Source: Roseomonas sp. OT10 (GTDB lineage Bacteria; Pseudomonadota; Alphaproteobacteria; Acetobacterales; Acetobacteraceae). Taken from it: a stretch of DNA of 64,000 nucleotides. Position 1 is the first letter of the stretch, and the number at the start of each line of letters is the position of its first letter. Shown here piece after piece: positions 27,223-57,901 of the stretch. The DNA lies in NCBI RefSeq assembly GCF_020991085.1, contig NZ_CP087719.1, positions 2,128,001 through 2,192,000 on the forward strand, read 5' to 3'. Below the pieces are notes generated by a model that worked only from the letters and a program-made list of their open reading frames with translations, did no database searches and was not told the DNA's origin. A program made the position numbers and the translations under genes.

Positions 27223-27597
27223 ATGTCGTTGCGCATGGGCCGCCTTCTCATCCTCAGTCCCGCGCTGCTGGCGGCCTGTGCCCAGGGACCGACGCTGGAC
27301 CAGCGCCTCTCCACCTTCGTCGGCCGCTCCGAGCTGGACTTGGTCAACGCGCTGGGCGTGCCGGCGCGGACGCATCAGGTGGACGGCGTGCGATTCCTGG
27401 CGTTCGAGAGCCAGCGCACCATGGCCCTGCCGGGCGGCGGCGCCTGGGCGGGGCCCGGTCCCTGGGGGCCGTATGGCGGCGGTTGGGGGTGGGGCTGGAA
27501 CTCGACCTCCTATGCTGTCGTGAACTGCGACGTCACGTTCGCCCTCCGGGCCGACCGGGTGGAAAGCTTCAGCTACCGGGGCGAAGGCTGCCGCTAA
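27223..27597 (+). CDS. small lipoprotein
   Basis: The 124-residue product has a lipoprotein signal with lipobox LAAC (Cys19), so it is probably anchored in a membrane facing the periplasm. The mature part has GRSELDLVNALGVPARTHQVDG, which resembles a SmpA/BamE-like fold in other small lipoproteins, then a glycine- and tryptophan-rich linker (about 69-90), then NCDVTFALRADRVESFSYRGEGC. GGAG lies 6 bases before the ATG. Its stop is followed at once by the structured repeat at 27602. Confidence 0.75.
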   Translation: MSLRMGRLLILSPALLAACAQGPTLDQRLSTFVGRSELDLVNALGVPARTHQVDGVRFLAFESQRTMALPGGGAWAGPGPWGPYGGGWGWGWNSTSYAVVNCDVTFALRADRVESFSYRGEGCR

Positions 27598-27601
27598 TAC
27601 C

Positions 27602-28036
27602 GACGGCGGGATGACCTGATCCGTCGTGCTATGGTGTTCCGGCGTCGGACCGGGAGGGGACGCCGGCCTGCGGGATCGACGCCGTGCGTCGATCCCCGTC
27701 CCGGACCCTCCCCTGCCGGGGCCACAAGCGGGCCCCGGTCCCCGCTGGGAGCTTGGTGCTTCCGGTGGGCGTCAGCCTCCGGGCTGAACCCTGACGGAAC
27801 GTGGACAAGCGGGACTCCGAAAAGCTCATGAGGCTTCAGCGAGAACAGAGGCCGTGCCCGCCGAGGAGCATGGCTCCTCGGCGCCTTGACCCCGTGTCCG
27901 GCTGTCCCGCGGTAGCACTCATCGGGTCCAGGGCCCGCAGGGTCCTGGCGGAGTGGGGGTACGGGGGCGAGGCAGAGCCTTGCCCCCGGGCCACGGGCTC
28001 ACCCTACGCCGGCACGGATCAACGCATCCCGCCGTC
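27602..28036. repeat. structured intergenic repeat, copy 1
   Basis: A 435-bp element bounded by 23-base inverted ends (27602-27624 and 28014-28036; 20 of 23 pair). It is strongly similar along its length to 52467-52869. It holds perfect hairpins at 27672-27696 (10-bp stem, present only in this copy), 27716-27738 (8-bp stem) and 27859-27883 (11-bp stem, 3-base loop), and a G-rich/C-rich hairpin around 27965-27990. No convincing coding frame or transposase is present. It starts 4 bases after the stop codon of the lipoprotein gene. The remaining 83 bp to the next gene hold nothing recognised. Confidence 0.85.
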
Positions 28037-28119
28037 AGGATGAGACCCGGCCCGCCGGGGGCGGATGCGCGCATAAGTCGGTGGAATCCCCGGCGGCGAG
28101 GGGCTAGATAGGGCGCGCC

Positions 28120-28749
28120 ATGCGCCGCATCCTCGCTGCCCTCCCCGTGATCCTGCTGCCGCTGGGCGCAGCCCAGGCCCAGTCGGACTTCACCCGTCCG
28201 CGCGGCCCCCTCACGCCGCCGCAGCAGAACAACGCCTCACGTCCGCCTCCGGCCGCCCTGCCCGGCCTAGCGAACCGGCCGCGCAACGCGCCCATCGAGG
28301 CCGAAGTACCGTCCGCCACCCTGTCGCCCAATGCCGCGCTGTTCGACGCCATCAACCGTGGCGACCTGGCCGCGGCACGTGACGCCATGGCCCGCGGCGC
28401 CGACCTCGATGCCAGGAACGCGCTGGGCCTGGCGCCGATCGACGCGGCAGTGGACCAGGGGCGCAACGAGATCGCCTTCTACCTGCTCTCCGCACGCGGC
28501 ACCGTCCGCAGTTCGGCCCCGCCCCCGGACCAGGCGGCTGCCGCTCCCCCGCCGCGCAATGCCCGCGGCGCCTCCAGCCGGCCGGCGCCGGCACCGCGCA
28601 GCACGGCCCGCGACGCGCGGGATACGACGGTGACCCGGACCCGCCCGCCCGCCGAGTTGCGGGCGGCGGAGCGCGCGCCCGTGGGCGGCGGCGGCGCGCC
28701 GCGGCCCGAGGCCGGCTTCCTGGGTTTCGACGGCGGCCGCGGCGGCTGA
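28120..28749 (+). CDS. exported protein with one ankyrin-like repeat
   Basis: The 209-residue product has a signal peptide (MRRILAALPVILLPLGAAQAQ, cleavage near residue 20). One ankyrin-type unit covers about residues 72-125 (NAALFDAINRGDLAAARDAM, RGADLDARNALGLAPIDAAVD, GRNEIAFYLL). The rest is disordered and rich in Pro, Ala and Arg, ending FLGFDGGRGG. Only about one and a half ankyrin units are visible, which is too few for a long binding surface. Probably periplasmic; the function is not known. Confidence 0.75.
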   Translation: MRRILAALPVILLPLGAAQAQSDFTRPRGPLTPPQQNNASRPPPAALPGLANRPRNAPIEAEVPSATLSPNAALFDAINRGDLAAARDAMARGADLDARNALGLAPIDAAVDQGRNEIAFYLLSARGTVRSSAPPPDQAAAAPPPRNARGASSRPAPAPRSTARDARDTTVTRTRPPAELRAAERAPVGGGGAPRPEAGFLGFDGGRGG

Positions 28750-40001: not shown

Positions 40002-40525
40002 GAGGGCCTCCGGCGAGGTGCGATCGTCTGCCGACCGGTGCGCTGGGCATGTCCCGTCGGCACGGGCCGTGATTGCGCACCGCGGCACGCGGCGCGGTCA
40101 ACGAGACTCTTGCCGTCGCCATCGCCGTTCCGCGCCGTGACTGCCCCCCAAAGGATCAGAACGCCTGCGCCGATGGCATCCTGAGCGGTGCCGCGCCATT
40201 CCCGCCCCGAGCCCGAGCCCGAGCCCGAGCCCGAACCGGCGATGCCGGGGGGCCGCGCCTCCATTCCATGACGCGGCGGCCGGGCGGCGCGGTGTCGCGG
40301 AAGGTCCACGGCGCCCACGTCGCCGCCGGATGATCGGCACCGCGAGGCCAGATGGCTTGCACCTGTCCCGAAGCCAGGCATCATGACGTGGCGGCAACGG
40401 GTTGCGGCGGCTCCCGCCTGGCTCGCTGGCCACATTCGGGGGGGGGCGACGGCCCGCCGAATCGCAAGGACCGGATGGCAGCGGACGGCCCGCCTGCCTC
40501 CCCCGGCAGGACGGAGGCGGGCAGC
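40002..40525. other. 524-bp divergent intergenic region before the giant adhesin
   Basis: This gap lies between the divergent oligopeptide-binding protein gene and the adhesin gene. It must hold both promoters, but no clear -35/-10 pair stands out. It contains the hexamer tandem repeat at 40206-40235. The adhesin frame stays open upstream to 40352, but that part lacks a signal peptide and has low-complexity basic coding, so it is treated as non-coding leader. Confidence 0.5.
40206..40235. repeat. hexanucleotide tandem repeat, five units
   Basis: Four units of CCCGAG are followed by CCCGAA. The tract lies 205 bp upstream of the binding-protein start (minus strand) and 291 bp upstream of the adhesin start (plus strand). 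Slipped-strand change of the copy number would alter promoter spacing without affecting a reading frame. Confidence 0.9.
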
Positions 40526-43500
40526 ATGGCGTGGCACCAAGAGGGTCCGGCGGGCGCGCTGCGTGCCATGCTGCTGTGCAGCACCGCCCTCCTGCCGGTT
40601 GGCATCCTCTCCTCCGCCGCCCTTGCCCAGGCCCCGAACGCCGCCCCGACCGGCGGACGCGTCACGGCGGGGGCCGCCGCGATCGCGGGCGGCGCGGCGC
40701 AGACCACCATCACCCAGTCGACCGACCGCGCCGCCATCGACTGGCAGCGCTTCGATGTCGGGCGCAACCACACCGTCACCTTCCAGCAGCCCACCGCCCA
40801 GTCCTGGACCCTGAACCGCGTCACCACGCCGGAGCCGTCGCAGATCGCAGGCCGCATCCAGGCCAATGGCGGCGTCGCCATCGTCAACCAGTCCGGCGTG
40901 GTCTTCACCGAGGGCGCGCAGGTCAATGTCGGCAGCCTGATCGCCTCCGCGGCGAACATCACCGACCAGAACTTCATGGCCGGCCGCATGGTCTTCGACG
41001 GGGCCGCCCGCCCCGGCGCGAAGGTGGAGAACCGCGGCAGCATCACCGTCGCCCAGCAGGGGCTGGTGGCGCTCGCCGGACCGCAGGTGGCGAATTCGGG
41101 CACGATCCGCGCGAAGCTGGGCCGCGTCGCCCTGGCCGGGGCGGAGACCTACGCGCTCGATCTCGCCGGCGACGGGCTGCTCTCGATCGACGTCACCCAG
41201 TCGGTGCGCAGCCGCCCGGAGGGCGGCGCGGCGCTGGTGACCAACAGCGGCACCATCGCCGCGGAGGGCGGCTCCGTCCTCCTCACCGCCTCGGCCGCCT
41301 CGGGGCTGGTCGAGGAGGTGGTGCGGCAGAGCGGCCGGATCGAGGCGAACACGCGTGGCGGCCGCACCGGGCAGGTGGCGCTGCGCGGCAGCGGCGGCGG
41401 CGTGCGGGTCGAGGGCAGCGTCGCCGCGACCGGCGGGGCGGGGCAGCAGGGCGGCCAGATCGAGGTGATGGCCCAGGGCGGCACGGCGCGCGTGGCGGCC
41501 GGGGCGCGGCTCGACGCCTCCGGAGGCGGCGGCGGCGGCCGGATCGCCGTCGGCGCCGACGTTGCGAGCCCGGCGGGCCGGCCCGCCCGCCGCTCCACCC
41601 GCACGGTGGTCGAGACGGGCGCGGAGCTGCGCGCGGACGCCACCGGGCGCGGGCGGGGCGGCACCGTGGTCGTCAACGGCGAGCAGTCGGTCGAGGCGCG
41701 CGGCCGCATCTCCGCCCGCGGCGGGCCGCAGGGCGGCGATGGCGGCCTGGTCGAGGCCTCCTCCGGCGGCACGCTGAACTTGGCCGCGCCGATCGACGTG
41801 ACGGCACCGGCCGGGACGGCGGGCAGCTTCCTCCTCGATCCCCAGCGCATCCGCGTCACCACGGACGCCGCCGATCCGGCCAACCCGGCCGGCACGCCCA
41901 ACGGCTCCGGCGTGGTGGCGGCCAACACCGCGCCCGATACGGGCGAGGTCCGCATCGCGCCCCTCACCATCGAGAACTTCAGCGGCACGGTGACGCTCCA
42001 GGCCGATCTGGGGGTGCGCGTCACCGCCGGGATCGCCAAGACCAATGGCGGGCTGACCCTCACCACCACGGCCGCGGCGGGGACGGCGGGCCTGACCGGC
42101 GTGTCGGTGGAGGCGAACGTCTCCGTCAGCGGCCGCCTCGGCATCACGACCGCGGGCGACGTCGCCGTCGGGGCGGGCGTCTCGGTCAACGCGGGCCAGT
42201 TCGCCGTGACCCAGGCGGCGAACGTCACCAACTCCGGCGCGATCAGCGCGCCGGACCTGTCCATCCTGGCCACCGGGGACGTGCTGAACGCGACCGGGGC
42301 GACCATGACGGCGCAGCAGTTCTCGGTCGGCCAGTCCGCGAACTTCACCAATTCCGGGACGATCACCGCGCCGGGCATCTTCGTCTCCGCCAGCGGCAGC
42401 ATCGTGAACACCGGGCAGATGCTGGCCTCCAACGACAGCTCCACCTTCACCGGCATCGGCCTGACCGCCGGAGGGCTGGTGCGCAACACCGGCACCATCA
42501 GCACCCTGGCGGGCTACGAGTCACCCTTCGACGGCGACATCACCATCACCGGCACCACGGTCGAGAACACGGGCACGATCACCGCCCTGCGCAACGCGGA
42601 GGTGCGCGCCACCTCGGGGACCCTCACCAACAGCGGACGGATCTCCTCCTCCGGCAGCTACAGCTTCGACAGTTCCAGCTTCATCGGCGCGAACCGCACC
42701 ACGGTCTCGGGCGAGGACGGCGTCGTCAACACCGGCATCATCACCGCCACCGGCTTCCTAACCTTCTCGGGCGTGGACTACGCCGCGACCACCAGCGTCA
42801 CCTCCTCGGGCGGCGTCACCAACGACACGGGCGGCACGATCAGCGCGCGGGGGGGAGTGACCGTCTCCGCCGGCGGCGAGGCGACCAATGCCGGCACCAT
42901 CGCCTCGACAGGCGCCAACATCGAGATCATCGCCGACGCCATCACGACCAGCGGCAGCATCACCGCAGGCGGCGATATCCGGCTGCAGGGTGGCAGGGAC
43001 ACGTCGCTCCTGATCGGTCTCGCCGCCGTGACGGGCGCCGTCGTCGTGTCCGGTCCTGTCTCCGCGACCGGCTCCGTGGACATCACCGGCGACAGCACGG
43101 TCACGCTGCAGAACGGCGCCGCCGTCCGCGGCAACGGCGGGGTGAGCATCTCCGGCGGCGCGGGAGTGACGCTGGAGGGCGGGTCGGGCGTCACGGCGGG
43201 AACGCCGTCCCTCGACGCGACGGCCCGCCTCTCCACCACGGGCGGCGACATCCAGACCCTGGCGGGGTCGAGCATCAGCGCCAACGCCATCATCCTGGAT
43301 TCGGCGCAGGACGTCCTGCACGGCGGCACCGCGACGGGGGGCGCGGGAAGCGCAGGCAGCGCCATCGAGATCACCGGCCGCAACCTGGTCCATACCGGCA
43401 GCCTGACCGGGGAGGCCAGCCTGTCCATCTCGATGGACGGCACCATCGACACCAGCGGCACCATCCGCTCCGACGCCGGCAACCTGTACCTCTCCGCCGG

Positions 43501-46500
43501 CGGCACCGGCCGGCCCGCAGGCCAGGCCTGGTCGATCCGCCAGACCGGCGGGACCATCGCCGCGGTCACCGACCCGTCTGCCCCCTCCCCCGACGATTCC
43601 GGCCGGGTGGATCTCTACACCGGCTCCGGCGGGGTTCTGCAGACGGGCGGCAGCGTGGTGGCCGCCTACCTGACCGGCGAGGTCGCCACGACGCTGTCGC
43701 TGGAAAGCGCGACCAACCAGATCGACGCGCTGGGCGCCGGGTCGTTCCGCGGCCTCCACGCCGGGCAGCAGGCCGCCACGCCGGCGGAGGCCAGCCTGAG
43801 CCTGCGCACGGCACGCCCCCTGGAGGTGGCGGGCGAGGTCTCCGTCGGCATCGATTCCGCCAGCTTCATCGTCCGGCGCGGCGGCACGATCAGCCTCGCC
43901 ATGGATGCGCTGAGCTTCAGCGGGACGGGCACGCTGCGCGCCCCGGACGGGCTGGTCGCGCTGACCCCCGCGACCGACGGGCTGCATGTCGCCATCGGCC
44001 GGCTCGGCACGCCCACGGGCCCGGGCGCGGAGCTGGCCCTGAGCGCCGCGGAGCTGGAGGGGAACATCCTCGCCGGCACGCTGCGCCTCGGCGCCGGGGC
44101 GGCCGGCACCACCCTCCCCCGCGCCGGCAGCATCCGGCAGTACGCGGACAGCCTGGACCTCGTGACGGGGGGCTCCGTCCCCGGCTCCACCGAGGGCCGC
44201 GCCAGCAACCTCCAGCTCTACGCGGGCGGCGCGATCCAGCAGCGCGGGCGCAGCGGCACCGTCGCGGCGGAGACGGAGGGGGCCGGTCCCGACACGGCGG
44301 ATGGCGCCCGCGGCACGCTGCGCGTGGCCAGCCTTTCCGGCGAGGCTGGCACCTTCGCCTGGTTCGGCGCGGACAACCGGATCGCCTCGGTGGGCGACTT
44401 CGCGGCACCCGAGGGCTTCACCCTGCGCAACGCCCCCGGCAGCTATCCCGGCCCGGTCGCCGGCGCCAATGCGAACGGCGTGGCGGTGGACGGAGAGGTC
44501 CGGGTGGCGGCCGGCCGGCGCATCGTGCTGGCGGCGGACCAGATCTCGATCGATTCCGCCACGGGGCGGCTGCTGGCCCCGGCGGGCGAGGTGGACCTCC
44601 TCCCCGCCACCCTCGGCCGGGCCGTGGTGCTGGGCGGTACCGTCGCGGCCACCGCCGGCCTCTCGCTCTCGGACCTGTCCCTGGCGCGGATCGGAGAGGC
44701 CGGCAGCCCGGTGGCGGTGCTGCGCATCGGCCGCTCCGAGGACAGCGCGGTGCAGGGCAACCCGGACTGGCCGGCGGCCTTCGCCCTGGGCCGCAGCGAG
44801 GCCGCCGGCTCCACCGCCGCCGGGCCGCGCACGGCGGGCGACATCGCGGTGAGCGGAGACGTGATCCTGCGCGCCGGGACCGCCGACCGGGTGGCGCGGC
44901 TGGAGCTCTATGCGGGCGTCGAGGCCACGGCGACCGGCACCGTCACGCAGACGGCCGGGACGCGCATCGACGTCGCCACCCTGTCCGGCGAGGCGCGGGA
45001 ATCGGCGCTGCTGACCTCGGCACAGAATCGCGTCGACGTGCTGGACGGCTTCCGCGCGGGCACCGGCCCCTCCTCCGGCACGGACAGCGACTTCGCGCTC
45101 TACAGCCGCCTGACGCCGCGCGGCGGCGACGCGGCGGGCGATGCCGCCACGCCGCTGGCGGTGACCGGCGAGGTCTCGGTGAACCGCCGCGCCGACGGCA
45201 CGGCCGCCACGGGCGGCGGTCCCGGCACGATCGCCCTGGCCGGGCCGTCGCTGGAGCTGGGCGCCGACATCACCGCGCCGCCGGCCGCCGGCAGCGTGCT
45301 GACCGGCACGGGCGCGGTGCGGACGGACACCAGCCGCACGGTGCTGGAGGCGACGCTGGGCGACATCGTCCAGACCGCCGGACGGCTCCTGACCGGGCGG
45401 CTGTCCACGCGCTCCGCCGGGGACACGACCCTCACCGCCGGAACCAACCAGGTCCAGGCGCTGGTGGCGATGGGGCCCCCGCCTTCCGGCGCCGTCTCCA
45501 CCCAGGCGGAGAGCATGCTCTCCACCGGCGGCGACATCGCCCTGACCACCCTGCTGAACACCGCGGGCGGCGTCAGCGCGGGCGAGCGCGCGCTGGTGGT
45601 GCAGGATGCGGTGCGCGTGGCCGCCGGCGGCACCCTGACCCTGCGCGCGGACGACCTGACCCTGCGCGCGGCGCTGTCCGCGGCCGGCGGCACCATCGTC
45701 ATCGCGCCGCTGACGGAGGACGGCTCGGTCGGCATCGCCCTGGGCGGAGCGGCGGGCAGCTTCAGCGCGGCCGAGCTGACACTGGACACGGACGAGATCG
45801 CGCTGCTGCCGCGCGCCGCCGGCACGGGGGCGGCGCTGCTCGCCCTCGGCACCTCCTCGACGGGCGAGATCGCCATCCGCGGCGTGGCCGATTTCGGCGA
45901 GCCCACGGGTACGGCCCGCGCCGCCGACCTGGTGAGCCTGCAGGGCGCCGGGGGCGTCACGCAGGAGGCAGGCACGCAGCTCCTCGCACCGGCGCTCACC
46001 GCGCGGGTCGAGGACGCGGTACGGCTCGACCCGGGCAGCGGCGACAACCGCGTGGGAGAGCTGCGCGACGTCAGCGCGCCGGGCGGGCTGGCGTATCGCG
46101 GCGGCGGGACTCTGCAACTGACGGCCGCCACCGCCGGCGGGCCGGCCGTGACGGTGGCAAGCGGCGCCACGGTGCGGCTGCGGGTGGGCGACCTCGACAT
46201 CCTCGCCCCGCTGGTCGCACCGGGGGGGACGGTGGAAATCCTGCCGGAGACCGCCGGCGGTCTCATGGCCCTGGGCGGGACGGTGGCGGGCGCCCTGTCC
46301 CTCACCGCAGCGGAGCTGGAACGGATCCAGGGCAGCGGCGGCATCGCGGTCGCGCTGCTGCGCCTCGGCGGCTCGGTGGCGGACGGCACCACGGCGGGCG
46401 ACATCGCCATCCCCGGCACCCTTGCCCTGCGTGACGCCTCGGGGAACCGCGTGGCGGCGCTGGCGCTGCTGTCGACGGGCAACGTCACCCAGGGCGGCGG

Positions 46501-49500
46501 CTCGGTCATCGACCTGGCGCAGCTCTCCATCGCGGCGGACGGCGCCGTCTCGCTCGACCCCGGCAATGCGGCCAACCGGATCGACCTGCTCTCCGGCGCG
46601 ACGGCCGGGGGCGGCTTCGCGTTGCGGGCGGGCGGACCGGGGATCGTCGTCGGCAGCGGCGGCATCACCGCCGGCTCCGGAACGGACATCCGGCTGCGGG
46701 CGGATGCGCTGTCGCTTGGCGGTCCGCTCGCTGCCCCGGCGGGCACGATCAGCCTGCTGCCCGAGACGAGCGGGCTGGGCATGACCCTGGGCGGCACGGT
46801 GGCCGGGACCCTCTCCCTGGACGCCCCCGGGCTGGCGCTGCTGGGCGGCGACGGCACCACCCCGGCGGCACGGCTGCAACTCGGCGGGTCGGGGGTGGAC
46901 GGCACCACGGCCGGCGACATCGCCATCCTCGGCAACGTCGTCCTGCGCGATTCCGGCGGCGAGCGTGTCGAGGCGCTCGACCTGCAGGCGCTGGGCAACG
47001 TGACGCAAGCGGCGGGCACGGCGGTGACCGTGGCCAGCCTCTCCGCCGCGATCGGCGGGGCGGCGACGCTGGACCCCGGCAACGACGCCAACCGGATCGA
47101 CACGGTGAGCGGCGTGACGGCGGCCGGCGGCTTCAGCCTGCGGGCTGGCGGGGCGGGCGTGACGGTGGGCAACGACGGCATCGCCGTCGGCACCGGCACG
47201 GAGGCCCGGCTGCGGGCGGATGCCATCACCCTGTCCGGCGACATCAGCGCCGCCGGTGGCACCATCACCCTGCTGCCGGAGACGAGCGGCCTCGGCATGA
47301 CGCTGGGCGGCACGGCCCCCGGCACGCTGTCGCTGGACAGCGCCGGCCTGGCGCGTCTCGGCGGCGACGGCAGCACCCCGGCGGCCCTGCTCCAGCTCGG
47401 CGGCTATCCGGCGGATGGCAGCACGCCCGGCCTCACCACCGCGGGCGACATCGGCATCACGGGTGCCGTCGCGCTGCGCGATGCGTCCGGCGAGCGGGTG
47501 CAGGCCCTGGCGCTGCGGGCGCAGGGGAGCGTGGCCCAGGCCGCGGGGACCTCGCTGGATGTGGCGGCCCTCTCGGCCCATGTCGGCGGCACGGCCTCGT
47601 TCGACCCCGGCAGCGCCGCGAACCGCGTCGACGTGCTGCGCGACAGCTCGGCTGGCGCGTTGCTGTCCTATCGCGGCGGCCTTCCGCTGCAACTGATCAG
47701 CGCCACGTCGGGTGGCGCGGCGGTCACGCTGGGCAGCGGCGGCGAGGTGCGGCTGCGGGTGGACTCGCTGTCCGTCCTGGCCCCGGTGGTGGCGCCGGAC
47801 GGGACGATCACCCTGCTGCCCGAGACCAGCGGCCTGGCGATGACGCTGGGCGACACGGCCCCCGGCACGCTGTCGCTGGACAGCGCGGCGCTGGCGTTGC
47901 TGGGTGGCGACGGCACCACTCCCGCCGCGCAACTCCAGCTCGGCGGCTACCCGGCGGATGGCGGCACGCCGGGCCTCACCACCGCGGGCGATATCGGCCT
48001 CTCTGGCACCGTCGCCCTGCGCGACTCCTCAGGCAGCCGGGTACAGGCACTTACGCTGCGCACGCAGGGCGACGTGAGCCAGGCCGCCGGCTCGGCCCTG
48101 GACGTCGCGATTCTCTCGGCCGAGGCCGCCGGGCTCGTCCGCCTCGACCCCGGTAGCGCCGCCAACCGCGTGGACGTGCTGCGCGACACCAGCGTGGGTG
48201 ACGGCCTGTCCTACCGCGGCGGCGTGCCGCTCCAGCTGAGCGCCTCCACCCCGGGCAGCCCCGCCATCGTCGCGGGAAGCGGGACGGAGGTGCGGCTGCG
48301 GGTGGACTCGCTGTCCATCCTGGCCCCGGTGGTGGCGCCGGACGGGACGATCACCCTGCTGCCCGAGACCGGCGGCCTGGCCATGACGCTGGGCGGCACG
48401 GCGCCCGGCACGCTGTCGCTGGACAGCGGGGCGCTGGCGTTGCTCGGCGGCGAAGGCGCCACCCCCGCCGCCCTGCTCCAGCTCGGCGGCTATCCGGCGG
48501 ATGGCAGCACGCCGGGCCTGACGACGGCGGGCGACATCGGCATCACCGGCGCCGTCGCGCTGCGCGATTCGGCGGGACCGCGGGTGGCGGCGCTGGACCT
48601 GCGGGCGCAGGGCGACGTGACCCAGACGGCCGGGTCGCTGAACGTGGCGACGCTCTCAGCCCAGGCCGGCGGCACGGTGGCGCTGGACCCCGGGACCAGC
48701 GCCAACCAGGTGGATGTCCTGCGCGACAGCTCCGCCGCCACAGGTTTCTCGTATCGCGGCGGCATCCCCTTGCAGCTCGGCGGCACGCCGTCGGATGGCG
48801 CGGCCATCACCCTTGGCAGCGGCGGCGAGGTCCGGCTGCGGGTGGACTCGCTGTCCATCCTGACGCCCGTGGTGGCGCCGGGCGGGACCATCACCCTGCT
48901 ACCCGAGACGAGCGGGCGAGCGGTGACGCTGGGCGCCGAGATGGCCGGGACGCTGTCGCTGGACGGCGCAGAATTGGTAAGACTGCAGGGTCGTACAGCC
49001 GTCTTCCCGTCCTACACCTGCCCCAGTCCTAGCTGCTTCGTCCCCGCGCAGCCGGCGGCCGTCCTGCGGATCGGTGGGTCGGTTGTGGACAGCACAACTG
49101 CCGGAGACATCACCATCGCCGGCAACGTTGCACTGCGCGACGCCAGCGGGGAGCGTATCCGCGCGCTGGCGTTGCAGTCCCAGGGCAACGTGGCCCAGGG
49201 GGCCGGGACGTCACTGGACGTGGCGGCCCTCTCGGCCCATGTCGGCGGCACGGCCTCGTTCGACCCCGGCAGCGCCGCGAACCGCGTCGACGTGCTGCGC
49301 GACAGCTCCGCAGGCACGTTGCTGTCCTATCGCGGTGGCGTGCCCTTGCATCTGAGCAGCGCCACGCCGGGCGGCGCGGCGGTCACGCTGGGCAGCGGCG
49401 GCGAGGTGCGGCTGCGGGTGGACTCGCTGTCCGTCCTGGCCCCGGTGGTGGCGCCGGACGGGACGATCACCCTGCTGCCCGAAACCAGTGGTCTGGCGAT

Positions 49501-52462
49501 GACGCTGGGCGGCACGGCCCCCGGCTCGCTGTCGCTGGACAGCGCGGCGCTAGCGTTGCTGGGCGGAAACGGCGCCATCCCCGCCGCCCTGCTGCGGCTG
49601 GGCGGCTCGGACGCGGACGGGACCACGGCCGGCCCCATCGCCATCTCCGGCCCCGTTGCCCTGCGCGCCGGCGGCACGGATCGCGTCCGCGCGCTGGAGC
49701 TGCGGTCCCAGGCGGATGTCGTCCAGGCCGCCGGCACCTCGCTCGACCTCGCCAGCCTCTCGACGCGCGTCGACGGCGCCGTGTCGCTCGATCCCGGCAC
49801 CGGCGCGAACCGGGTGGATGCGGTGGACGGCGCCATCGCCCAGGGCGGCTTCGCCCTGCGGACCGGCGGCGCGGGCGTGACCGTCGGCACCGGGGGCATC
49901 GTCATCGGCCCCGGCGGCGAGATCCGCCTGCGCGCCGATGCCGTGACCCTGCTGGGCAGCCTCGTCGCCCCGGCGGGCACCATCACCCTGCTGCCGGAGA
50001 CGGTCGGGACCACGATGGTCCTCGGTGGTTCCCTGTCCGGGACACTGCCGGTGGATGTCGGGCCACTCGGCGGCGCGGCGGGGGTGCCGGCGACGCTTCT
50101 GCAGCTCGGCGGCTCGGCCGTGGACGGCACCACGGCGGGGGCGATCCTCATCACCGGGAACATCGCCCTGCGGGACGCCTCGGGAGAGCGGGTACGGGCG
50201 CTGTCGCTGCTGTCGCAGGGCGCGGTGACGCAGGCGGCCGGGTCCTCGCTGAACGTGGCCACCGTGTCCGCCGCCGCGGGCGGGCCGGTGTCGCTCGACC
50301 CCGGGACGGGGGCGAACCGCATCGACGTCATCAGCGGCGTGGGCGCCGGCGGCTTCGCGTTGCGCGCGGGCGGTCCCGGCGTGACGGTCGGCGCGGAGGG
50401 AATCTCCGCCGGCAATGGCGGCGAGGTCCGGCTGCGCGCCGACGCCGTCACCCTGGCGGGCAGCATCGCCGCCCCGGCGGGCAGCATCATCCTGCTGCCG
50501 GAGACGAACGGCCTGGCCATGACGCTGGGCGGCACGGCCCCCGGCACGCTGTCGGTGGACACGACGCGGCTCGGCGGGGAGGGCGACGTCCCGGCCGCAC
50601 GGCTCCAGCTGGGCGGCTCGGCGACCGATGGCACCACGGCGGGGGCGGTCACCATCGCCGGGCCCGTGGCTCTGCGCGATGCCGCCGGGGACCGCATCCA
50701 GGCGCTGGCGCTGCTGGCCCAGGGCGGCGTGACCCAGGCCGCCGGCACGTCGCTGGACGTGGGCAGCCTGTCCGCCGTTGCGGGCGGTGCGGTGAGCCTC
50801 GATCCCGGAACCGGCGCCAACCGCATCGACACGCTGACCGGCCTCGCGGCCGGGGGCGGCGTCGCGCTGCGGGCGGGCGGCGCCGGGGTGACCGTGGCGG
50901 GCGACGGCATCCTGGCGGGCCGCGGCAGCGAGATCCGGCTGCGGGCCGATGGCATCGGGCTGGAAGCGCCGATCCTGGTCCCCGGGGGCACGGTCTCGCT
51001 CCTGCCGGAGACCGCGGGCTTGGCCATGGTGCTGGGCGGCGATGCGACGGGAGCCCTGTCGCTGGATGCGGCGGGGCTGGCCCGGATCGGCGGCGGGGGC
51101 GGCCCGGCCGCGCTGCTGCGGCTCGGCGGCTCGGCGGCGGACGGCACGACCGCCGGCGACATCCTGATCCCCGGCGCGGTCGCGCTGCGCGATGCCGCGG
51201 GCGAGCGGGTGCAGGCCCTGGCGCTGCTGGCCAATGGCTCGGTGACCCAGGGCAGCGGCGGCGGGCTGGCTGTGGCCGGCCTGACCGCCAATGCGGGGGG
51301 CGCGGTGTCGCTGGACGGCACCGGGAACCGGGTGGACCTGCTGGGCGCCAGCAGCGCGGGCGGCGGCTTCTCCCTGACCAACGGGCTGGGCCTCCTCGTC
51401 AGCGGCCCGGCCGTGACCGCGGGCGGGGCCCTGCGCCTCTCCGCCTCGGGCGGGATGCTGCTGCCGGGGGTGACGCTGCGCGGCCAGAGCCTCGCCCTGT
51501 CCGCCGGCGGTGGCCTGGCCGCACAGGGTGCCGTGCTCCAGGCCGTGAACGACGCCACTCTCTCCTCCGGCCTCGCCACCGCGCTCGACGCGACGGTGGC
51601 CGAGGCCGGCGGGGAGGTGCGGATCGAGGCGGCCGGGCAGGCCGCCATCGCGCGCAGCGGCATCGCCGCCGAGACCCTGGTGGTGCGGGCCGGGGTCGGT
51701 GGCGACATGGGCGCGACGCTCTCGCTGGATGGCGCCACCTTCACGCTCGGCCGGGCGGTGCTGCTCGCGGCCGGCGGCGGCATCACCATGGGCGAGACTT
51801 CGGCAGTGGTGTCGCGGGACGGGTCCCGGCGGCCGGCGGTGCTGCTGGACACCCGTCGCGGCGGTGCCCTGACCGGCCTCCCCGAGGCGGTGCAGGCCGA
51901 CAGCCCGCTGCTGCCGGATGCGGCGCAGGCCACGCAGGTGCGGGAGCCGGGCATCGACGCGCCGGGCAGCTTCGGGGCCGCCAGCTTCGCCGCGGCCGGC
52001 CCGATGAACCTGCATCTGGAGGCGGGCCAAAGCCCGGTCTTCCTGCTGCTGGACGGCGGCACGGCCAATGGCACGCTCGGCGCCGGGCGGCTGGGCGTGC
52101 AGGGCACGGGCGGCGCGATGGCGCTGACCGGCCGCCTGGGCACCCGGATCGACGGCACCGCGGCGCAACTCGGCGACATCACCCGGCCCGTCGCGGAATC
52201 CGTGCGGGTGAACTACCTGTTCAACGGCTGCGTCATCGCCTCCTCCACCTGCGCCCTGATCCCCGCGCTGGTGGAGCTGCCGGCCCCGCTGGTCCGCATC
52301 CAGGAGGGGGTGGACCGGATGGAGGTGGAGGTCCTGCTGTCGGGCAACCCGTTCAGACAGCTTCTGCCGCCGCCGGAGCTCTACCGCCGCGAGGAGGAGA
52401 CCAAGCGCAGTATCCAGGATCCGGACGTGCCGCTGCCGAATGTTGGCGAGGTGGACTACTGA
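40526..52462 (+). CDS. giant filamentous-haemagglutinin-like secreted protein (TpsA type)
   Basis: A product of about 3978 residues. It has a signal peptide (about 1-36, ending AALAQA) and a haemagglutination-activity/TPS domain (about 41-160) with the motif QIAGRIQANGGVAIVNQSGVVF. A Gly/Ala/Thr-rich beta-helix region follows. A tandem array of about ten modules covers roughly residues 1875-3590, and the C-terminal region has the cysteine pair GCVIASSTC (3902 and 3909). No autotransporter barrel is seen, so it should need a TpsB pore, which is not in this window. GGAGG lies 8 bases before the ATG at 40526. The likely role is adhesion or biofilm formation on the cell surface. Confidence 0.85.
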   Translation: MAWHQEGPAGALRAMLLCSTALLPVGILSSAALAQAPNAAPTGGRVTAGAAAIAGGAAQTTITQSTDRAAIDWQRFDVGRNHTVTFQQPTAQSWTLNRVTTPEPSQIAGRIQANGGVAIVNQSGVVFTEGAQVNVGSLIASAANITDQNFMAGRMVFDGAARPGAKVENRGSITVAQQGLVALAGPQVANSGTIRAKLGRVALAGAETYALDLAGDGLLSIDVTQSVRSRPEGGAALVTNSGTIAAEGGSVLLTASAASGLVEEVVRQSGRIEANTRGGRTGQVALRGSGGGVRVEGSVAATGGAGQQGGQIEVMAQGGTARVAAGARLDASGGGGGGRIAVGADVASPAGRPARRSTRTVVETGAELRADATGRGRGGTVVVNGEQSVEARGRISARGGPQGGDGGLVEASSGGTLNLAAPIDVTAPAGTAGSFLLDPQRIRVTTDAADPANPAGTPNGSGVVAANTAPDTGEVRIAPLTIENFSGTVTLQADLGVRVTAGIAKTNGGLTLTTTAAAGTAGLTGVSVEANVSVSGRLGITTAGDVAVGAGVSVNAGQFAVTQAANVTNSGAISAPDLSILATGDVLNATGATMTAQQFSVGQSANFTNSGTITAPGIFVSASGSIVNTGQMLASNDSSTFTGIGLTAGGLVRNTGTISTLAGYESPFDGDITITGTTVENTGTITALRNAEVRATSGTLTNSGRISSSGSYSFDSSSFIGANRTTVSGEDGVVNTGIITATGFLTFSGVDYAATTSVTSSGGVTNDTGGTISARGGVTVSAGGEATNAGTIASTGANIEIIADAITTSGSITAGGDIRLQGGRDTSLLIGLAAVTGAVVVSGPVSATGSVDITGDSTVTLQNGAAVRGNGGVSISGGAGVTLEGGSGVTAGTPSLDATARLSTTGGDIQTLAGSSISANAIILDSAQDVLHGGTATGGAGSAGSAIEITGRNLVHTGSLTGEASLSISMDGTIDTSGTIRSDAGNLYLSAGGTGRPAGQAWSIRQTGGTIAAVTDPSAPSPDDSGRVDLYTGSGGVLQTGGSVVAAYLTGEVATTLSLESATNQIDALGAGSFRGLHAGQQAATPAEASLSLRTARPLEVAGEVSVGIDSASFIVRRGGTISLAMDALSFSGTGTLRAPDGLVALTPATDGLHVAIGRLGTPTGPGAELALSAAELEGNILAGTLRLGAGAAGTTLPRAGSIRQYADSLDLVTGGSVPGSTEGRASNLQLYAGGAIQQRGRSGTVAAETEGAGPDTADGARGTLRVASLSGEAGTFAWFGADNRIASVGDFAAPEGFTLRNAPGSYPGPVAGANANGVAVDGEVRVAAGRRIVLAADQISIDSATGRLLAPAGEVDLLPATLGRAVVLGGTVAATAGLSLSDLSLARIGEAGSPVAVLRIGRSEDSAVQGNPDWPAAFALGRSEAAGSTAAGPRTAGDIAVSGDVILRAGTADRVARLELYAGVEATATGTVTQTAGTRIDVATLSGEARESALLTSAQNRVDVLDGFRAGTGPSSGTDSDFALYSRLTPRGGDAAGDAATPLAVTGEVSVNRRADGTAATGGGPGTIALAGPSLELGADITAPPAAGSVLTGTGAVRTDTSRTVLEATLGDIVQTAGRLLTGRLSTRSAGDTTLTAGTNQVQALVAMGPPPSGAVSTQAESMLSTGGDIALTTLLNTAGGVSAGERALVVQDAVRVAAGGTLTLRADDLTLRAALSAAGGTIVIAPLTEDGSVGIALGGAAGSFSAAELTLDTDEIALLPRAAGTGAALLALGTSSTGEIAIRGVADFGEPTGTARAADLVSLQGAGGVTQEAGTQLLAPALTARVEDAVRLDPGSGDNRVGELRDVSAPGGLAYRGGGTLQLTAATAGGPAVTVASGATVRLRVGDLDILAPLVAPGGTVEILPETAGGLMALGGTVAGALSLTAAELERIQGSGGIAVALLRLGGSVADGTTAGDIAIPGTLALRDASGNRVAALALLSTGNVTQGGGSVIDLAQLSIAADGAVSLDPGNAANRIDLLSGATAGGGFALRAGGPGIVVGSGGITAGSGTDIRLRADALSLGGPLAAPAGTISLLPETSGLGMTLGGTVAGTLSLDAPGLALLGGDGTTPAARLQLGGSGVDGTTAGDIAILGNVVLRDSGGERVEALDLQALGNVTQAAGTAVTVASLSAAIGGAATLDPGNDANRIDTVSGVTAAGGFSLRAGGAGVTVGNDGIAVGTGTEARLRADAITLSGDISAAGGTITLLPETSGLGMTLGGTAPGTLSLDSAGLARLGGDGSTPAALLQLGGYPADGSTPGLTTAGDIGITGAVALRDASGERVQALALRAQGSVAQAAGTSLDVAALSAHVGGTASFDPGSAANRVDVLRDSSAGALLSYRGGLPLQLISATSGGAAVTLGSGGEVRLRVDSLSVLAPVVAPDGTITLLPETSGLAMTLGDTAPGTLSLDSAALALLGGDGTTPAAQLQLGGYPADGGTPGLTTAGDIGLSGTVALRDSSGSRVQALTLRTQGDVSQAAGSALDVAILSAEAAGLVRLDPGSAANRVDVLRDTSVGDGLSYRGGVPLQLSASTPGSPAIVAGSGTEVRLRVDSLSILAPVVAPDGTITLLPETGGLAMTLGGTAPGTLSLDSGALALLGGEGATPAALLQLGGYPADGSTPGLTTAGDIGITGAVALRDSAGPRVAALDLRAQGDVTQTAGSLNVATLSAQAGGTVALDPGTSANQVDVLRDSSAATGFSYRGGIPLQLGGTPSDGAAITLGSGGEVRLRVDSLSILTPVVAPGGTITLLPETSGRAVTLGAEMAGTLSLDGAELVRLQGRTAVFPSYTCPSPSCFVPAQPAAVLRIGGSVVDSTTAGDITIAGNVALRDASGERIRALALQSQGNVAQGAGTSLDVAALSAHVGGTASFDPGSAANRVDVLRDSSAGTLLSYRGGVPLHLSSATPGGAAVTLGSGGEVRLRVDSLSVLAPVVAPDGTITLLPETSGLAMTLGGTAPGSLSLDSAALALLGGNGAIPAALLRLGGSDADGTTAGPIAISGPVALRAGGTDRVRALELRSQADVVQAAGTSLDLASLSTRVDGAVSLDPGTGANRVDAVDGAIAQGGFALRTGGAGVTVGTGGIVIGPGGEIRLRADAVTLLGSLVAPAGTITLLPETVGTTMVLGGSLSGTLPVDVGPLGGAAGVPATLLQLGGSAVDGTTAGAILITGNIALRDASGERVRALSLLSQGAVTQAAGSSLNVATVSAAAGGPVSLDPGTGANRIDVISGVGAGGFALRAGGPGVTVGAEGISAGNGGEVRLRADAVTLAGSIAAPAGSIILLPETNGLAMTLGGTAPGTLSVDTTRLGGEGDVPAARLQLGGSATDGTTAGAVTIAGPVALRDAAGDRIQALALLAQGGVTQAAGTSLDVGSLSAVAGGAVSLDPGTGANRIDTLTGLAAGGGVALRAGGAGVTVAGDGILAGRGSEIRLRADGIGLEAPILVPGGTVSLLPETAGLAMVLGGDATGALSLDAAGLARIGGGGGPAALLRLGGSAADGTTAGDILIPGAVALRDAAGERVQALALLANGSVTQGSGGGLAVAGLTANAGGAVSLDGTGNRVDLLGASSAGGGFSLTNGLGLLVSGPAVTAGGALRLSASGGMLLPGVTLRGQSLALSAGGGLAAQGAVLQAVNDATLSSGLATALDATVAEAGGEVRIEAAGQAAIARSGIAAETLVVRAGVGGDMGATLSLDGATFTLGRAVLLAAGGGITMGETSAVVSRDGSRRPAVLLDTRRGGALTGLPEAVQADSPLLPDAAQATQVREPGIDAPGSFGAASFAAAGPMNLHLEAGQSPVFLLLDGGTANGTLGAGRLGVQGTGGAMALTGRLGTRIDGTAAQLGDITRPVAESVRVNYLFNGCVIASSTCALIPALVELPAPLVRIQEGVDRMEVEVLLSGNPFRQLLPPPELYRREEETKRSIQDPDVPLPNVGEVDY
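46150..51300 (+). repeat. tandem array of about ten 168-192 residue modules in the adhesin
   Basis: The anchor LPE(T) recurs in frame at 46241, 46757, 47273, 47816, 48359, 48899, 49475, 49991, 50495 and 51002, giving periods of 504-576 bp. Each module contains LGGT-(x)n-LSL, a LQLGG or LRLGG strand, TTAGDI, ALRD, TQAAGT-like, LDPG-(x)n-NR(V/I)D and LR(A/V)D segments. Three earlier segments (near 43970, 44600 and 45700) look like worn copies of the same unit. Modules 4 to 7 are most alike at DNA level. Confidence 0.88.
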
Positions 52463-52466
52463 TACC

Positions 52467-52869
52467 GACGGCGGGATGCCCTGATCCGTTGTGCTGTCGT
52501 GTTCGGGCGGTGGACCGGAAGGGGACGCTGTCCCCTCCCAGACCCTCCCCTGCCGGGGCCACAAGCGGGCCCCGGACCCCGCTGGGAGTCTGGTGCTTCC
52601 GGTGGGCGTCAGCCTCCGGGCTGAACCCTGACGGAACGTGGATAAGCGGGACTCCAGAATAGCTTTGAAGGCGTCAGCGAATGCTGCGGCCGTACCCGCC
52701 GAGGAGCATGGCTCCTCGGCGCCGTGACCCCGTCGCAGGCGGTCCCGCGGCAGCGCCAAATGGGTCCAGGGCCCGCAGGGTCCTGGCGGAGTGGGGGTAC
52801 GGGGGCGAGGCAGCGCCTTGCCCCCGGGCCACGGGTACCACCCCGCACGGATCAGGGCATCCCGCCGTC
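52467..52869. repeat. structured intergenic repeat, copy 2
   Basis: A 403-bp element bounded by perfect 23-base inverted ends (52467-52489 and 52847-52869). It is similar throughout to 27602-28036 in the same orientation but lacks the 27672-27696 hairpin. The 11-bp hairpin is conserved at 52697-52721, as is the GCCGGGGCC/GGCCCCGG hairpin. It starts 4 bases after the adhesin stop codon and ends 47 bp before the stop of the convergent glycosyltransferase-like gene. No coding frame is convincing. Confidence 0.88.
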
Positions 52870-52916
52870 CGTATGAACCGGCCGGGTCCCGCGCGGCGCG
52901 GGCAGGCGTGCCGCCC

Positions 52917-54384: not shown

Positions 54385-56241
54385 TCAGCCTTCCCCGACC
54401 GGCGCGGGCATGGGCATGGCCGGCGCGGGACCGGCCAGGGCGCGCAGGTCGGTCTCGTCCAGCGTCTCCTTCTCCAGGAGCAGCTTCGCCGAGCGCTCCA
54501 GCAGCGGCTGGCGCTCGCGCAGCAGCGCCACGGTGCGGTCAAAGGTGTCGTCCACGATCCGCCGTACCTCCTCGTCCACCGCGGCCGCCGTCTCGTCGGA
54601 GTAGCTGCGCTCCTGCGGCCCGTAATAGGGCTGTTCGGTCGCAAGCAGGGAGCGGCGGTCGCGCTCCAGCGCGACATGCCCCAGCCGCTCCGTCATGCCG
54701 TAGCGGGTGACGATGGCCCGGGCGATGTCGGTGACCTTCGCCAGGTCGTCCGCCGCGCCGGTGGACAGGTGCCGGAAGACGATCCACTCCGCCGCGCGCC
54801 CGCCCAGCAGCACGGCCATCTTGTTCTCCAGCTCCTCGCGCGTCATCAGGAAGCGGTCCTCGGTCGGGCGCTGGATGGTGTAGCCCAGGGCGCCGATGCC
54901 GCGCGGGATGATGGACACCTTGTGCACCGGATCGACCCCCGGCAGAGCCAGCGCGACCAGCGCATGGCCCATCTCGTGATAGGCGACGATCGTGCGCTCG
55001 CGCGGGTTCAGCAGGCGGTTGCGCTTCTCCAGACCCGCGATCATGCGCTCGATGGCGTTGTTGAAATCCGCCATGGTCACAGAAACGCCGCCGCGCCGTG
55101 TGGCCAGCAGCGCCGCCTCGTTCACCAGGTTGGCGAGGTCGGCGCCGGTGAAGCCCGGCGTCAGCGCCGCGATCTGCTCGGGCTTCACATCCGGCGCCAG
55201 CTTCGTCTGGCGCAGGTGCACCTCCAGGATCTGGATGCGCCCCGCCTTGTCCGGCCGGTCCACCAGCACCTGCCGGTCGAAGCGCCCGGCGCGCAGCAGC
55301 GCGGGATCGAGGATCTCCGGCCGGTTCGTCGCCGCCAGCAGCACGAGGCCGGTGGAGGAATCGAAGCCGTCCAGCTCCACCAGGAGCTGGTTCAGGGTCT
55401 GCTCCTTCTCGTCGTGCCCGCCGGCCATCGGGCCGATGCCGCGGGCGCGGCCGAGCGCGTCCAGCTCGTCGATGAAAATGATCGCCGGGGCGCGGGCGCG
55501 CGCCTGCTCGAACAGGTCACGCACACGGGCGGCGCCCACGCCCACGAACATCTCGACGAACTCCGAGCCGGAGATGGAGAAGAAGGGCACCCCCGCCTCG
55601 CCCGCCACGGCCTTGGCCAGCAGCGTCTTGCCCGTCCCGGGCGGGCCGACCAGCAGCACCCCCTTGGGCATCCGCCCGCCCAGGCGGCCATAGCCCTTCG
55701 GGTCCTTCAGGAAGTCCACGATCTCCTTCAGCTCGTCCTTGGCCTCATCCACCCCGGCCACGTCCTTGAAGGTCACGCCCGTGTCGGACTGGACGTAGAC
55801 CTTGGCCTTGCTCTTGCCGATCTGCATGAGCCCTCCGCCCATGCCGCCGCCGATCCGCCGCAGGACGAAGATCCAGACGCCGAGGAACAGCACCATCGGC
55901 ACGATCCAGGACAGGATGTCGCGCAGGAAGGTGCTCTCGATCTCCCCCGTCACGATGACGTTGTGCTGCTGCAGCTGCTGGGCGAAGTCCGGATCGACGC
56001 GGGTGGTGCGGAACGCCGACCGGCCGTCCTGCGGCTCCTTGAAGCGGCCCTGGATGAAGCGGTCGGAGACGGCGACGTCCGCGACCTTTCCCTGGTTCAG
56101 GTAGGTCTCGAACTGGCTGTAGGGGATGGTCGCGACCTGGTTGGCGCCGGCGAAGAGGTACTGGAACAGCAACAGGCCGACGAAGGCCGCCACCCAGTAC
56201 CATGCGCTGAACTGCGTCTTCCGGTTCGGTTCCAGTGCCAT
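54385..56241 (-). CDS. ftsH: ATP-dependent zinc metalloprotease FtsH
   Basis: A membrane-anchored AAA protease that degrades damaged membrane proteins and selected regulators. The 618-residue product has two membrane helices (about 14-32 and 111-128) with a periplasmic domain between them. Walker A is GPPGTGKT (199-206), Walker B IIFIDELD (254-261), SRH is [23 protein letters not shown], and the zinc site is HEMGH (422-426). AGGAGA lies 6 bases before the ATG at 56241. The C-terminal tail is short and Pro/Met-rich. A longer frame upstream is antisense to the next gene and rejected. Confidence 0.95.
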
Positions 56242-57514
56242 GGCGCCTCTCCTGTCCGATCGTTCGCAACGCCCCGGCCTCCCAGGGGTTCTACCGCCGG
56301 CCACGCCGTCGCAGGATAGGGAGCGGCCGGCGCCCCGCAACCGGGGGAGGCCGGGACCGGGGGCGCCGGGCCCGGGGGATGGTCCCTGGCGGACTCCGCG
56401 CTTCCCGGGCCTGCATCCGGCGGCCCCTACGGGTGACCCGGCCGCGGCCGGCACGACGCCAACGACCCCTGCCAGCGAGGACACACGACCATGACCACAC
56501 GGCCCCACTTCACCGCGGCACGGCGTGACCTTATCGCCTCCCTCGGCATCGCCTCCCTGGGCGGCGCCGCCCTGCTGCCCGCTGCCTCGCCCGGCGGCGC
56601 CCTGGCGCAAGGCGCGGCTCCCGCCCCTGCCGCGCCGCCACCGCCCGGCACGGCCGCCGCCGCCCGCGCCGTGGCGGGGGTCCGGGACGCCATCCTGCGC
56701 CTCTCGCGCGAGGTCTGGGCCGAGGCGGAGCTGAGCCGGCACGAGGTGCGGTCGGCGGCGATCCACCTGCGCGAGCTGGAGGCGGCGGGCTTCCGAGTCG
56801 TCAGCCGCGGCACCTCCGGCGTGCCCACCGCCTTCGTGGCGGAATGGAGCGCCGGCTCCGGCGGGCCCATCCTCGGCTACATGCCGGAATACGACGCGCT
56901 GCCCGGCCTGGGGAATGCCGCGGAACCGCGCCAGGCGCCCGGCCCCACCGGCACGGAGAGAGGGCATGGCTGCGGCCACAACATGCTGGGTGCCGGCTGC
57001 ACCGGCGGGGCCATCGCCCTGAAGGCCATGATGCAGGAGGCCGGCACCCCCGGTACCATCCGCGTCTATGGCTGCGCCGCCGAGGAGACGGAGGGCGCCA
57101 AGGTCTACATGGCGCGGGACAGGCTGTTCGAGGATTGCGACGCCGTCCTCGCCTGGCACCCCGCCCCCTTCGCCGGCGCCGGGATCGTCCGGCTGAACGC
57201 GGTCGACAAGGTCCGGGTGATATTCCACGGCCGCACCGCCCATGCCGGGATCGCCCCCTGGGAGGGGCGCAGCGCCCTCAAGGCGGCGGAGATGTTCGGC
57301 ATCGGCGTGCAGATGATGCGCGAGCACATCCTGCCCAGCGCGCGGATGCACTACATCTACGAGCAGGCGGGGGTGGCGCCGAACGTCATCCCCGATGTCG
57401 CGCAGGTCTGGATCCTCCTGCGCGACCTCGACCGGGAGAAGGTGGGCACGCTGACCGCCTGGATCCGGCAGGTGGCCGACGGCGCGGCCATGGCCACGCA
57501 GACCCGGGCGGAGG

Positions 57515-57544
57515 CGATTGAACCGCGCCGGGTTTGGCGGAGGC
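57515..57544. repeat. left target duplication and left inverted repeat of the IS
   Basis: CGAT at 57515-57518 is the left copy of the 4-bp target duplication; the 26-bp left inverted repeat follows at 57519-57544. The partner repeat is at 58817-58842 and the right CGAT at 58843-58846. Confidence 0.93.
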
Positions 57545-57568
57545 TCCAACCGTTGAGAGGATGGAGCG

Positions 57569-57901
57569 ATGACGGCGAAGAAGACGGCGGCGAGCTACTC
57601 GCCTGAGGTTCGGGAGCGGTCGGTGCGGCTGGTGCTGGACGGCGCCGGGGAGCATGGCTCGCAATGGGCGGCGATCGGCTCGATCGCGGCGAAGATCGGC
57701 TGCACGGCGGAGACGCTGCGTCGCTGGGTCCGGCAGGCCGAGCGTGACCGCGGCAAGCGTGCCGGGCCCACGAGCGAGGATCGGGATCGCATCAAGGCGC
57801 TGGAGCGGGAGAACCGCGAGCTGCGCCAGGCGAACGAGATCCTGCGCAAGGCATCAGCGTATTTTGCCCTGGCGGAGCTCGACCGCCGGTCGAAGCCATG
57901 A
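57569..57901 (+). CDS. IS3-family transposase OrfA
   Basis: The 110-residue product has the HTH_Tnp_1 pattern ([16 protein letters not shown], then [20 protein letters not shown]). A leucine-zipper-like stretch follows ([22 protein letters not shown]), which in IS3 elements mediates dimerisation. It ends in an ATGA overlap with OrfB. Confidence 0.92.

Follow-up and report, generated by a model that had tools for sequence, protein, structure and literature searches.

A dispersed, hairpin-rich MITE-like element found mostly at stop codons between convergent genes in Roseomonas sp. OT10

The window analyzed here, a 64,000-nucleotide stretch of the Roseomonas sp. OT10 genome (NZ_CP087719.1, positions 2,128,001 to 2,192,000), contains two similar segments with inverted ends and a series of hairpins, which raise the question of what such an element is, how it came to lie where it does, and what its hairpins are kept for. 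An earlier note, made from the sequence alone, had described 27602-28036 and 52467-52869 as two copies related over their full length; both are present and the alignment agrees, but at either side the true boundary is 4 bp outside the one given there. In the printed sequence, copy 1 is a long form of 443 bp (27598..28040, plus strand) and copy 2 a short form of 411 bp (52463..52873, plus strand). The 23-bp inverted ends that the note had reported are real as an inverted repeat, but form only part of a longer imperfect repeat starting TACSGACGGCGGGATG. In copy 1, the terminal inverted repeats occupy 27598..27613 and 28025..28040 (both plus strand), the outermost 4 bases of the right one being partly decayed. 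The consensus of 120 left ends is TACCGACGGCGGGATG and that of 128 right ends, given as the reverse complement, is TACGGACGGCGGGATG.

The two copies differ in their surroundings. Copy 1 lies between tandem genes (27235-27597 and 28120-28749, both plus strand); its left flank is TAA (27595..27597, plus strand), with which the gene upstream ends, and its right flank (28041-28043) is TGA, one transition away, so that this copy has no exact duplication. Copy 2 is flanked by convergent genes and by TGA on both sides, the left duplicate (52460..52462, plus strand) being the stop codon of a 4,036-amino-acid frame and the right one lying at 52874..52876 (plus strand). This frame (40352-52462, plus strand), at whose stop codon copy 2 directly begins, carries a TPS secretion domain (PF05860) and is likely a two-partner-secretion exoprotein. 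Elsewhere in the window, a 1,054-amino-acid frame (54385-57549, minus strand) matches the FtsH-type protease domains Peptidase_M41, AAA, and FtsH_ext, and an ALIL pseudoknot (RF01497, 114.7 bits), a frameshift signal of IS3-type elements, lies at 57856-57972 on the plus strand.

Both copies carry a series of hairpins (all plus strand), including the two that had been singled out in the earlier note. The GCCGGGGCC-type hairpin, or hairpin 2 (CCGGGGCC stem in copy 1), is found at 27716..27738 and 52553..52575, and the hairpin with an 11-bp stem and a 3-base loop, or hairpin 3, at 27859..27883, near the center of two-fold symmetry of copy 1, and at 52697..52721. Hairpin 1 of copy 2 lies at 52517..52539, hairpin 4 (9-bp stem and 3-base loop in copy 1) at 27928..27948 and 52766..52786, and hairpin 5 (12-bp stem and 3-base loop in copy 1) at 27962..27988 and 52800..52826. 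The long form differs at 27640-27705: in place of the GGGGACGCTGTCCCC hairpin of copy 2, it has an additional hairpin stretch, GGGATCGACGC-CGT-GCGTCGATCCC, and a comparable stretch occurs in L003. Folding of 52463-52872 yields z-scores of −8.8 on the plus strand and −7.3 on the minus strand, with none of 100 shuffled sequences folding as well. Over the whole window, the only Rfam matches are ALIL and one tRNA, both outside the element copies, and in a permissive scan of copy 1 the best match (E value of 0.21) fell under the curated cutoff, assigning it to no family.

The prediction that two copies in one window imply many in the genome is amply borne out. The genome of 5.69 Mb comprises contigs of 5.33 Mb, 286 kb, and 73 kb, and the 40 BLAST candidates that were scored, of 367, were all long matches. 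A core 27-mer has 134 matches at up to 3 mismatches, as opposed to 1 for its reversed control; for the end motif at up to 2 mismatches, the corresponding counts are 186 and 2. In all, 152 distinct copies were fetched and placed. The window together with 19 stretches of 20 kb, 444 kb in all that were not selected for the element, contains 16 copies, partial ones included, from which we estimate by extrapolation about 190 copies per chromosome. A covariance model of the element (R1, built from copies in this genome and in Roseomonas mucosa) has at least 150 matches in the genome, both halves of some elements being counted. It places two copies on the 286-kb contig and none on the 73-kb contig, and the initial view that the smaller contigs lack the element was accordingly rejected. 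A search of a plasmid collection for the element gave no match, as did a search of viral contigs with an exact 29-mer; the conserved 29-mer does match R. mucosa ATCC BAA-692 (28 stretches). Two copies are themselves interrupted, one (L057) by about 150 bp and the other (L162) by a sequence whose end resembles a resident insertion sequence (IS) of loci L121 to L124.

These copies were inserted, with duplication of 3 bp, TGA or TCA. Identical 3-bp flanks border 61 of the 102 copies in which both ends were found (TGA in 34, TCA in 26, and TAA in 1; the other 50 of the 152 copies, each lacking an identified end, do not enter these counts), whereas other flank widths match in 0 to 2 copies. When TSA is present at both ends (65 copies), the two are concordant in 60 and discordant in 5 (Fisher P = 1.7 × 10^−13). 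The target context is palindromic, approximately CNGNC-TSA-GNCNG at the 51 sites that have an intact duplication and abut a stop codon (see below), and CTSAG proper occurs in 27 of the 61 copies with an exact duplication, the TSA otherwise standing in a CTSAG-like context. The 102 two-ended copies range from 382 to 450 bp, with many length steps that are not multiples of 3, which upholds the earlier view that the element is noncoding. Of the features that define a MITE, the element has terminal inverted repeats, a fixed-length target-site duplication (3 bp in 61 of 102), and no transposase gene in copies of varying length (382 to 450 bp), and the terminal repeats and target duplications support the MITE-like half of what the note had proposed; an autonomous partner and an empty site were not found in the regions examined. 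For the empty site, the right flank of copy 2, a single flank compared with one genome per species, had no homologue in 14 relatives of the genus.

The full-length insertion sequence with the same 23-bp ends that the earlier note had anticipated did not appear in the regions examined in this genome. These 20 regions, covering 23 of 30 listed end sites far from a listed core (sites taken from 100 of the 186 end-motif matches), each hold an element copy, in one case (L087) only in part, and nothing else bounded by these ends. At 30 of the 34 matches to PF01609 that were examined, the end motif is absent at fewer than 3 mismatches, and 16 end-motif matches in relatives, judged by motif position and open-frame length, revealed no IS with the ends of the element. 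The genome does harbor an IS in 12 copies (L100 to L111), of which the 286-kb contig carries 9; its transposase matches an IS5-family model, and we take it to be of the IS1031 type. Duplication of TNA is the rule of the IS5/IS1031 group, and the TSA of the element follows it. Judged by visual inspection of its ends, the resident IS likewise has TNA flanks in a CTNAG-like context. Within its end, GAGCCTGATCCGAAA, it has CCTGATCCG in common with the inner ends of the element, both in the right-end consensus and at the left ends of the two window copies; its outer ends, however, are unlike the TACSGACGGCGGGATG of the element, so the two do not have the same terminus.

The position of the duplicated triplet is far from arbitrary. 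A left TGA is flush with a GC3-phased open frame, as its in-frame stop, in 45 of 60 cases and a right TGA in 46 of 59, as opposed to 1 of 36 and 2 of 43 for TCA and to 0 of 119 and 1 of 119 when the frame is shifted. Altogether, 75 of the 102 two-ended copies abut the in-frame stop codon of a neighboring gene at one or both ends, the duplication being intact in 51 of the 75, and both orientations of the element occur at stop codons (42 versus 33). Active targeting of stop codons was considered and dropped as the main cause, since 47 to 64% of the suitable sites in element-free convergent gaps are already stop codons (64 of 137 for TSA and 16 of 25 for CTSAG), these gaps being short. Among convergent insertions with an intact duplication, 31 of 38 are flush, which exceeds the TSA background but not clearly the CTSAG background, and much of the stop-codon pattern follows from the shortness of convergent gaps.

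The second regularity concerns gene orientation, which was assigned with a codon model whose training set was the flush genes adjoining the element. In this genome, 94 copies lie between convergent genes, 19 between tandem genes, and none between divergent genes (39 of 152 are unclassified), against a background of 55 convergent pairs in 374 (15%); copy 1 of the window, between tandem genes, is unlike most copies. In the unbiased sample, about one-fifth of convergent gaps hold an element (11 of 50), as opposed to 3 of 258 tandem gaps and 1 of 48 divergent gaps, the single divergent gap being occupied by a partial copy (L262), and the window element shared with an overlapping stretch (L267) being corrected for. 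Defined by the covariance model (n = 19), elements are convergent in 12 cases (one of them entered by both halves), tandem in 5, divergent in none, and unplaced in 2, and in 400 kb from three relatives (G003, G004, and G012), the element is present in 7 of 43 convergent, 6 of 236 tandem, and 0 of 41 divergent gaps. Convergent gaps are therefore preferred over tandem gaps about six- to nineteenfold. In R. mucosa, sites found by exact pattern show a weaker bias (6 convergent, 9 tandem, 1 divergent, and 6 unclear, of 22). Survivorship may account for the bias, as insertions at other places would be harmful. In relatives, too, elements occur at the gene ends that adjoin L003 and L030; the relatives' loci had been selected for holding elements, and we accordingly dropped the claim that position is conserved across species.

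What sets the element apart from an ordinary decaying insertion is the contrast between its ends and its hairpins. The 101 full copies that were aligned (one of the 102 two-ended copies being left out by length) have a mean pairwise identity of 0.857, and their nearest-neighbor identities are 0.867 to 0.940, so with no pair above 94%, none of these copies looks recent. Deviation from the consensus is 0.2 to 0.7% for the stems of hairpins 2, 3, and 5 and for the core containing hairpin 4, and 2.8% for the less conserved hairpin 1, but 16% for the ends and 13 to 23% for the remaining parts, including 13% for the segment separating hairpins 2 and 3. The linkers joining hairpins 4 and 5 are as conserved as the hairpins. 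Random pairs of copies are 98.5% identical in the conserved blocks and 79% identical elsewhere. Among the 24 copies whose ends are worst preserved, with 27% mismatches there, the deviation is still 0.0 to 0.8% for the four hairpin blocks and 3.8% for hairpin 1. Because plain decay after insertion would strike hairpins and ends alike, this pattern argues for constraint at each locus. The loop of hairpin 3 reads ATG in 60, CAA in 18, and CAT in 16 of the 101 copies, as if the hairpin were sometimes inverted. The stop-codon flank, the convergent setting, the symmetry described below, and the independence of the hairpins from the ends had escaped the earlier note, as other copies are needed to see them.

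We lean, if only slightly, toward regarding the element as an old family of nonautonomous, MITE-like insertions whose hairpin core would be kept as a bidirectional 3′-end structure. That the family is instead purely selfish, with hairpins needed for transposition, spread confined to active lineages, and survival at harmless sites, we consider unlikely. Terminal repeats, target duplications, a high copy number, and both orientations at stop codons (42 versus 33) are what such a family would display, and insertions at a stop codon or in a convergent gap would be harmless. But it would not be expected to lack recent copies (nearest-neighbor identity of at most 94% among the 101), to have lost its ends, which mobility requires, while keeping its hairpins, or to appear as it does in R. 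mucosa (G004), in which the hairpins are abundant yet the end motif, read from few copies, has 4 matches at up to 1 mismatch. In the favored reading, the hairpins would be kept for something other than mobility.

Comparison across species bears on the level at which the hairpins act. R1 matches 14 of 15 genomes of the genus, this one included, with 139, 124, and 120 matches in G004, G012, and G003 (upper bounds, as both halves of some elements are counted), and, of 100 genomes sampled from the family, 11 that represent ten genera including Roseomonas, those of other genera scoring 45 to 57 bits. A second model, R2, matched this genome alone among 240 genomes of the class (up to 14 candidates scored per genome). 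In an alignment of 27 sequences from 12 genomes (A3), pairing holds in 98.8% of the 844 cells of three triloop hairpins (stems of 11, 9, and 12 bp), although the stems differ between species at most positions; both sides have changed in 19 of 32 pairs, there are 134 double-change cells, no shuffle among 500 attains any of the five measures, and sliding the partners lowers pairing to 37 to 56%. The rows were hand-picked (6 from this genome, 6 from R. mucosa, and 15 of 18 relatives' loci, with L289, L297, and L302 omitted by eye because their central hairpin is different or missing), and 11 of the 27 come from matches to R1, which scores this very structure, so these figures lean high. Two further alignments (A1 and A2) combine copies taken at even steps from 150 in this genome with R. 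mucosa copies, and badly aligning rows (L162 and L157 in A1 and L287 in A3) were retained in the counts. The strong compensatory changes in hairpins across species favor the structured-RNA half of the earlier proposal.

The element is also roughly two-fold symmetric. A covariance model of the 3′ half recognizes the 5′ half on the minus strand, in copy 2 at 52513..52633 (27.3 bits; E value of 4.7e-4) and in relatives with up to 69 bits, although the corresponding region of copy 1 (27669-27796) reaches only 14.4 bits (E value of 0.17), and the element would consequently look alike to transcription arriving from either side.

A further alternative is a DNA-level role comparable to that of BIMEs: as a cruciform or as a binding site for gyrase or a nucleoid protein, the element would relieve the positive supercoils that accumulate between convergent genes. 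Folding is good on each strand (−269.9 and −257.4 kcal/mol), the conservation extends to linkers beyond the stems, and in the Watson-Crick-only fold of the 101 copies there is little excess of GU over AC (571 versus 488). Counted by hairpin, GU against AC is 8 versus 0 in hairpins 4 and 5 and 4 versus 26 in hairpins 1 and 2. The count over the Watson-Crick-only fold undid a hint from alifold (53 pairs, 13 with double changes), and we no longer hold the hairpins to prove an RNA from one strand. But between species, whole stem sequences are swapped almost completely with pairing kept, unusual for a sequence-specific protein site, and GU exceeds AC, weakly (35 cells versus 2, three columns that share their state through common descent supplying 27 of the 35), and we rate a DNA-level role as improbable. 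Least probable is that gene conversion or template-switch correction, for which perfect palindromes are known substrates, rather than selection preserves the hairpins: the alternating loop of hairpin 3 is what occasional inversion would give, but the tracts would have to be very short, limited to the hairpins and stopping at their borders (mismatches reach 13% in the stretch from hairpin 2 to hairpin 3), conservation is just as high in the linkers that join hairpins 4 and 5, and such correction would keep pairing but not one identical stem sequence, as hairpin 3 has in 97 of 101 copies.

Under the favored reading, of MITE-like insertions with a retained 3′-end structure, a reaction duplicating TGA or TCA in the GC-rich palindromic context inserted the copies, most of them at the stop codon of a gene and mainly among convergent genes; as the flanking TGA falls exactly on the stop codon, insertion re-creates the stop and leaves the protein intact. 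The ends then decayed freely, whereas the hairpin blocks and their linkers, nearly fixed, would have been held by selection. With the two halves approximately reverse complements, RNA from either neighboring gene would fold into a similar string of hairpins just past the stop codon of that gene, and the element would most likely end or stall transcription, protect mRNA 3′ ends, or both, separating two colliding transcription units. A search for intrinsic terminators (a hairpin followed by a T-run) gave none at either window copy on either strand, which ruled out that identity, and no sigma-70-like promoter was found at either copy. Without a U-tract, termination would probably involve Rho, and Rho-dependent termination or 3′ protection fits the sequence better than an intrinsic terminator does. 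In gaps of at least 30 bp that lack the element, stems of at least 8 bp are present in 8 of 20 convergent gaps (1 when shuffled), 21 of 140 tandem gaps (8 when shuffled), and 7 of 45 divergent gaps (2 when shuffled).

A bolder version, possible rather than probable, is that the element is a transposon-derived two-way 3′-end cassette that lands on a stop codon, regenerates it, and is subsequently selected as the terminator or insulator of both genes, persisting across the genus, more weakly in other genera of the family, and swapping whole stems while keeping its fold. U-tract terminators are few in high-GC bacteria, and how convergent genes are kept separate in them is poorly known, a question on which the element bears. 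Its approximately 190 near-replicate sites, variable outside the hairpins and nearly invariant within them, together with the stem-swapped homologues, constitute a ready test set for termination, mRNA 3′-end protection, insulation, and the domestication of mobile elements at stop codons.

Among known systems, a search of titles, abstract beginnings, and passages in three papers found no paper on this element; one passage mentions a MITE of about 400 bp in Methylobacterium, in a mention that includes no hairpins (PMC2680597). Bacterial MITEs such as YPAL and ERIC are described, in passages of PMC3733652, as small (70 to 300 bp), noncoding sequences with terminal repeats that lie near coding sequences and whose folded transcripts affect mRNA, and a terminator-like function is treated as conceivable, with SPRITE as the example, in a passage of PMC10969869. 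Like YPAL/ERIC, the NEMIS of Neisseria, and the pneumococcal RUP/SPRITE, the element has no coding capacity, bears terminal repeats, and lies near coding sequences; it is set apart, by descriptions rather than sequence comparison, by its greater length (410 to 450 bp, versus 70 to 300 bp), its string of triloop hairpins, which is two-fold symmetric and has entire stems replaced from one species to another, and its 3-bp target, usually a stop codon. YPAL, too, makes target duplications and sits just behind stop codons. REP/BIME sequences, according to passages of PMC3733652, are high-copy, intergenic, and mostly between convergent or unidirectional genes, with short loops, ends that often provide a stop codon, and alternative complementary stems, and CGTC repeats are given there as missing from Acetobacteraceae. 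Identity with REP (GTAG or CGTC) was rejected, the element being 382 to 450 bp long with TAC...GTA ends: REP units are 20 to 40 bp, tagged GTAG or CGTC, whereas the element, at about 410 to 450 bp, has terminal repeats and a target duplication. In its copy number, intergenic and convergent setting, short loops, and stop codon at the ends, it nonetheless resembles REP/BIME, and by analogy, its behavior would be that of REP/BIME sequences and of the MITEs that settle behind genes.
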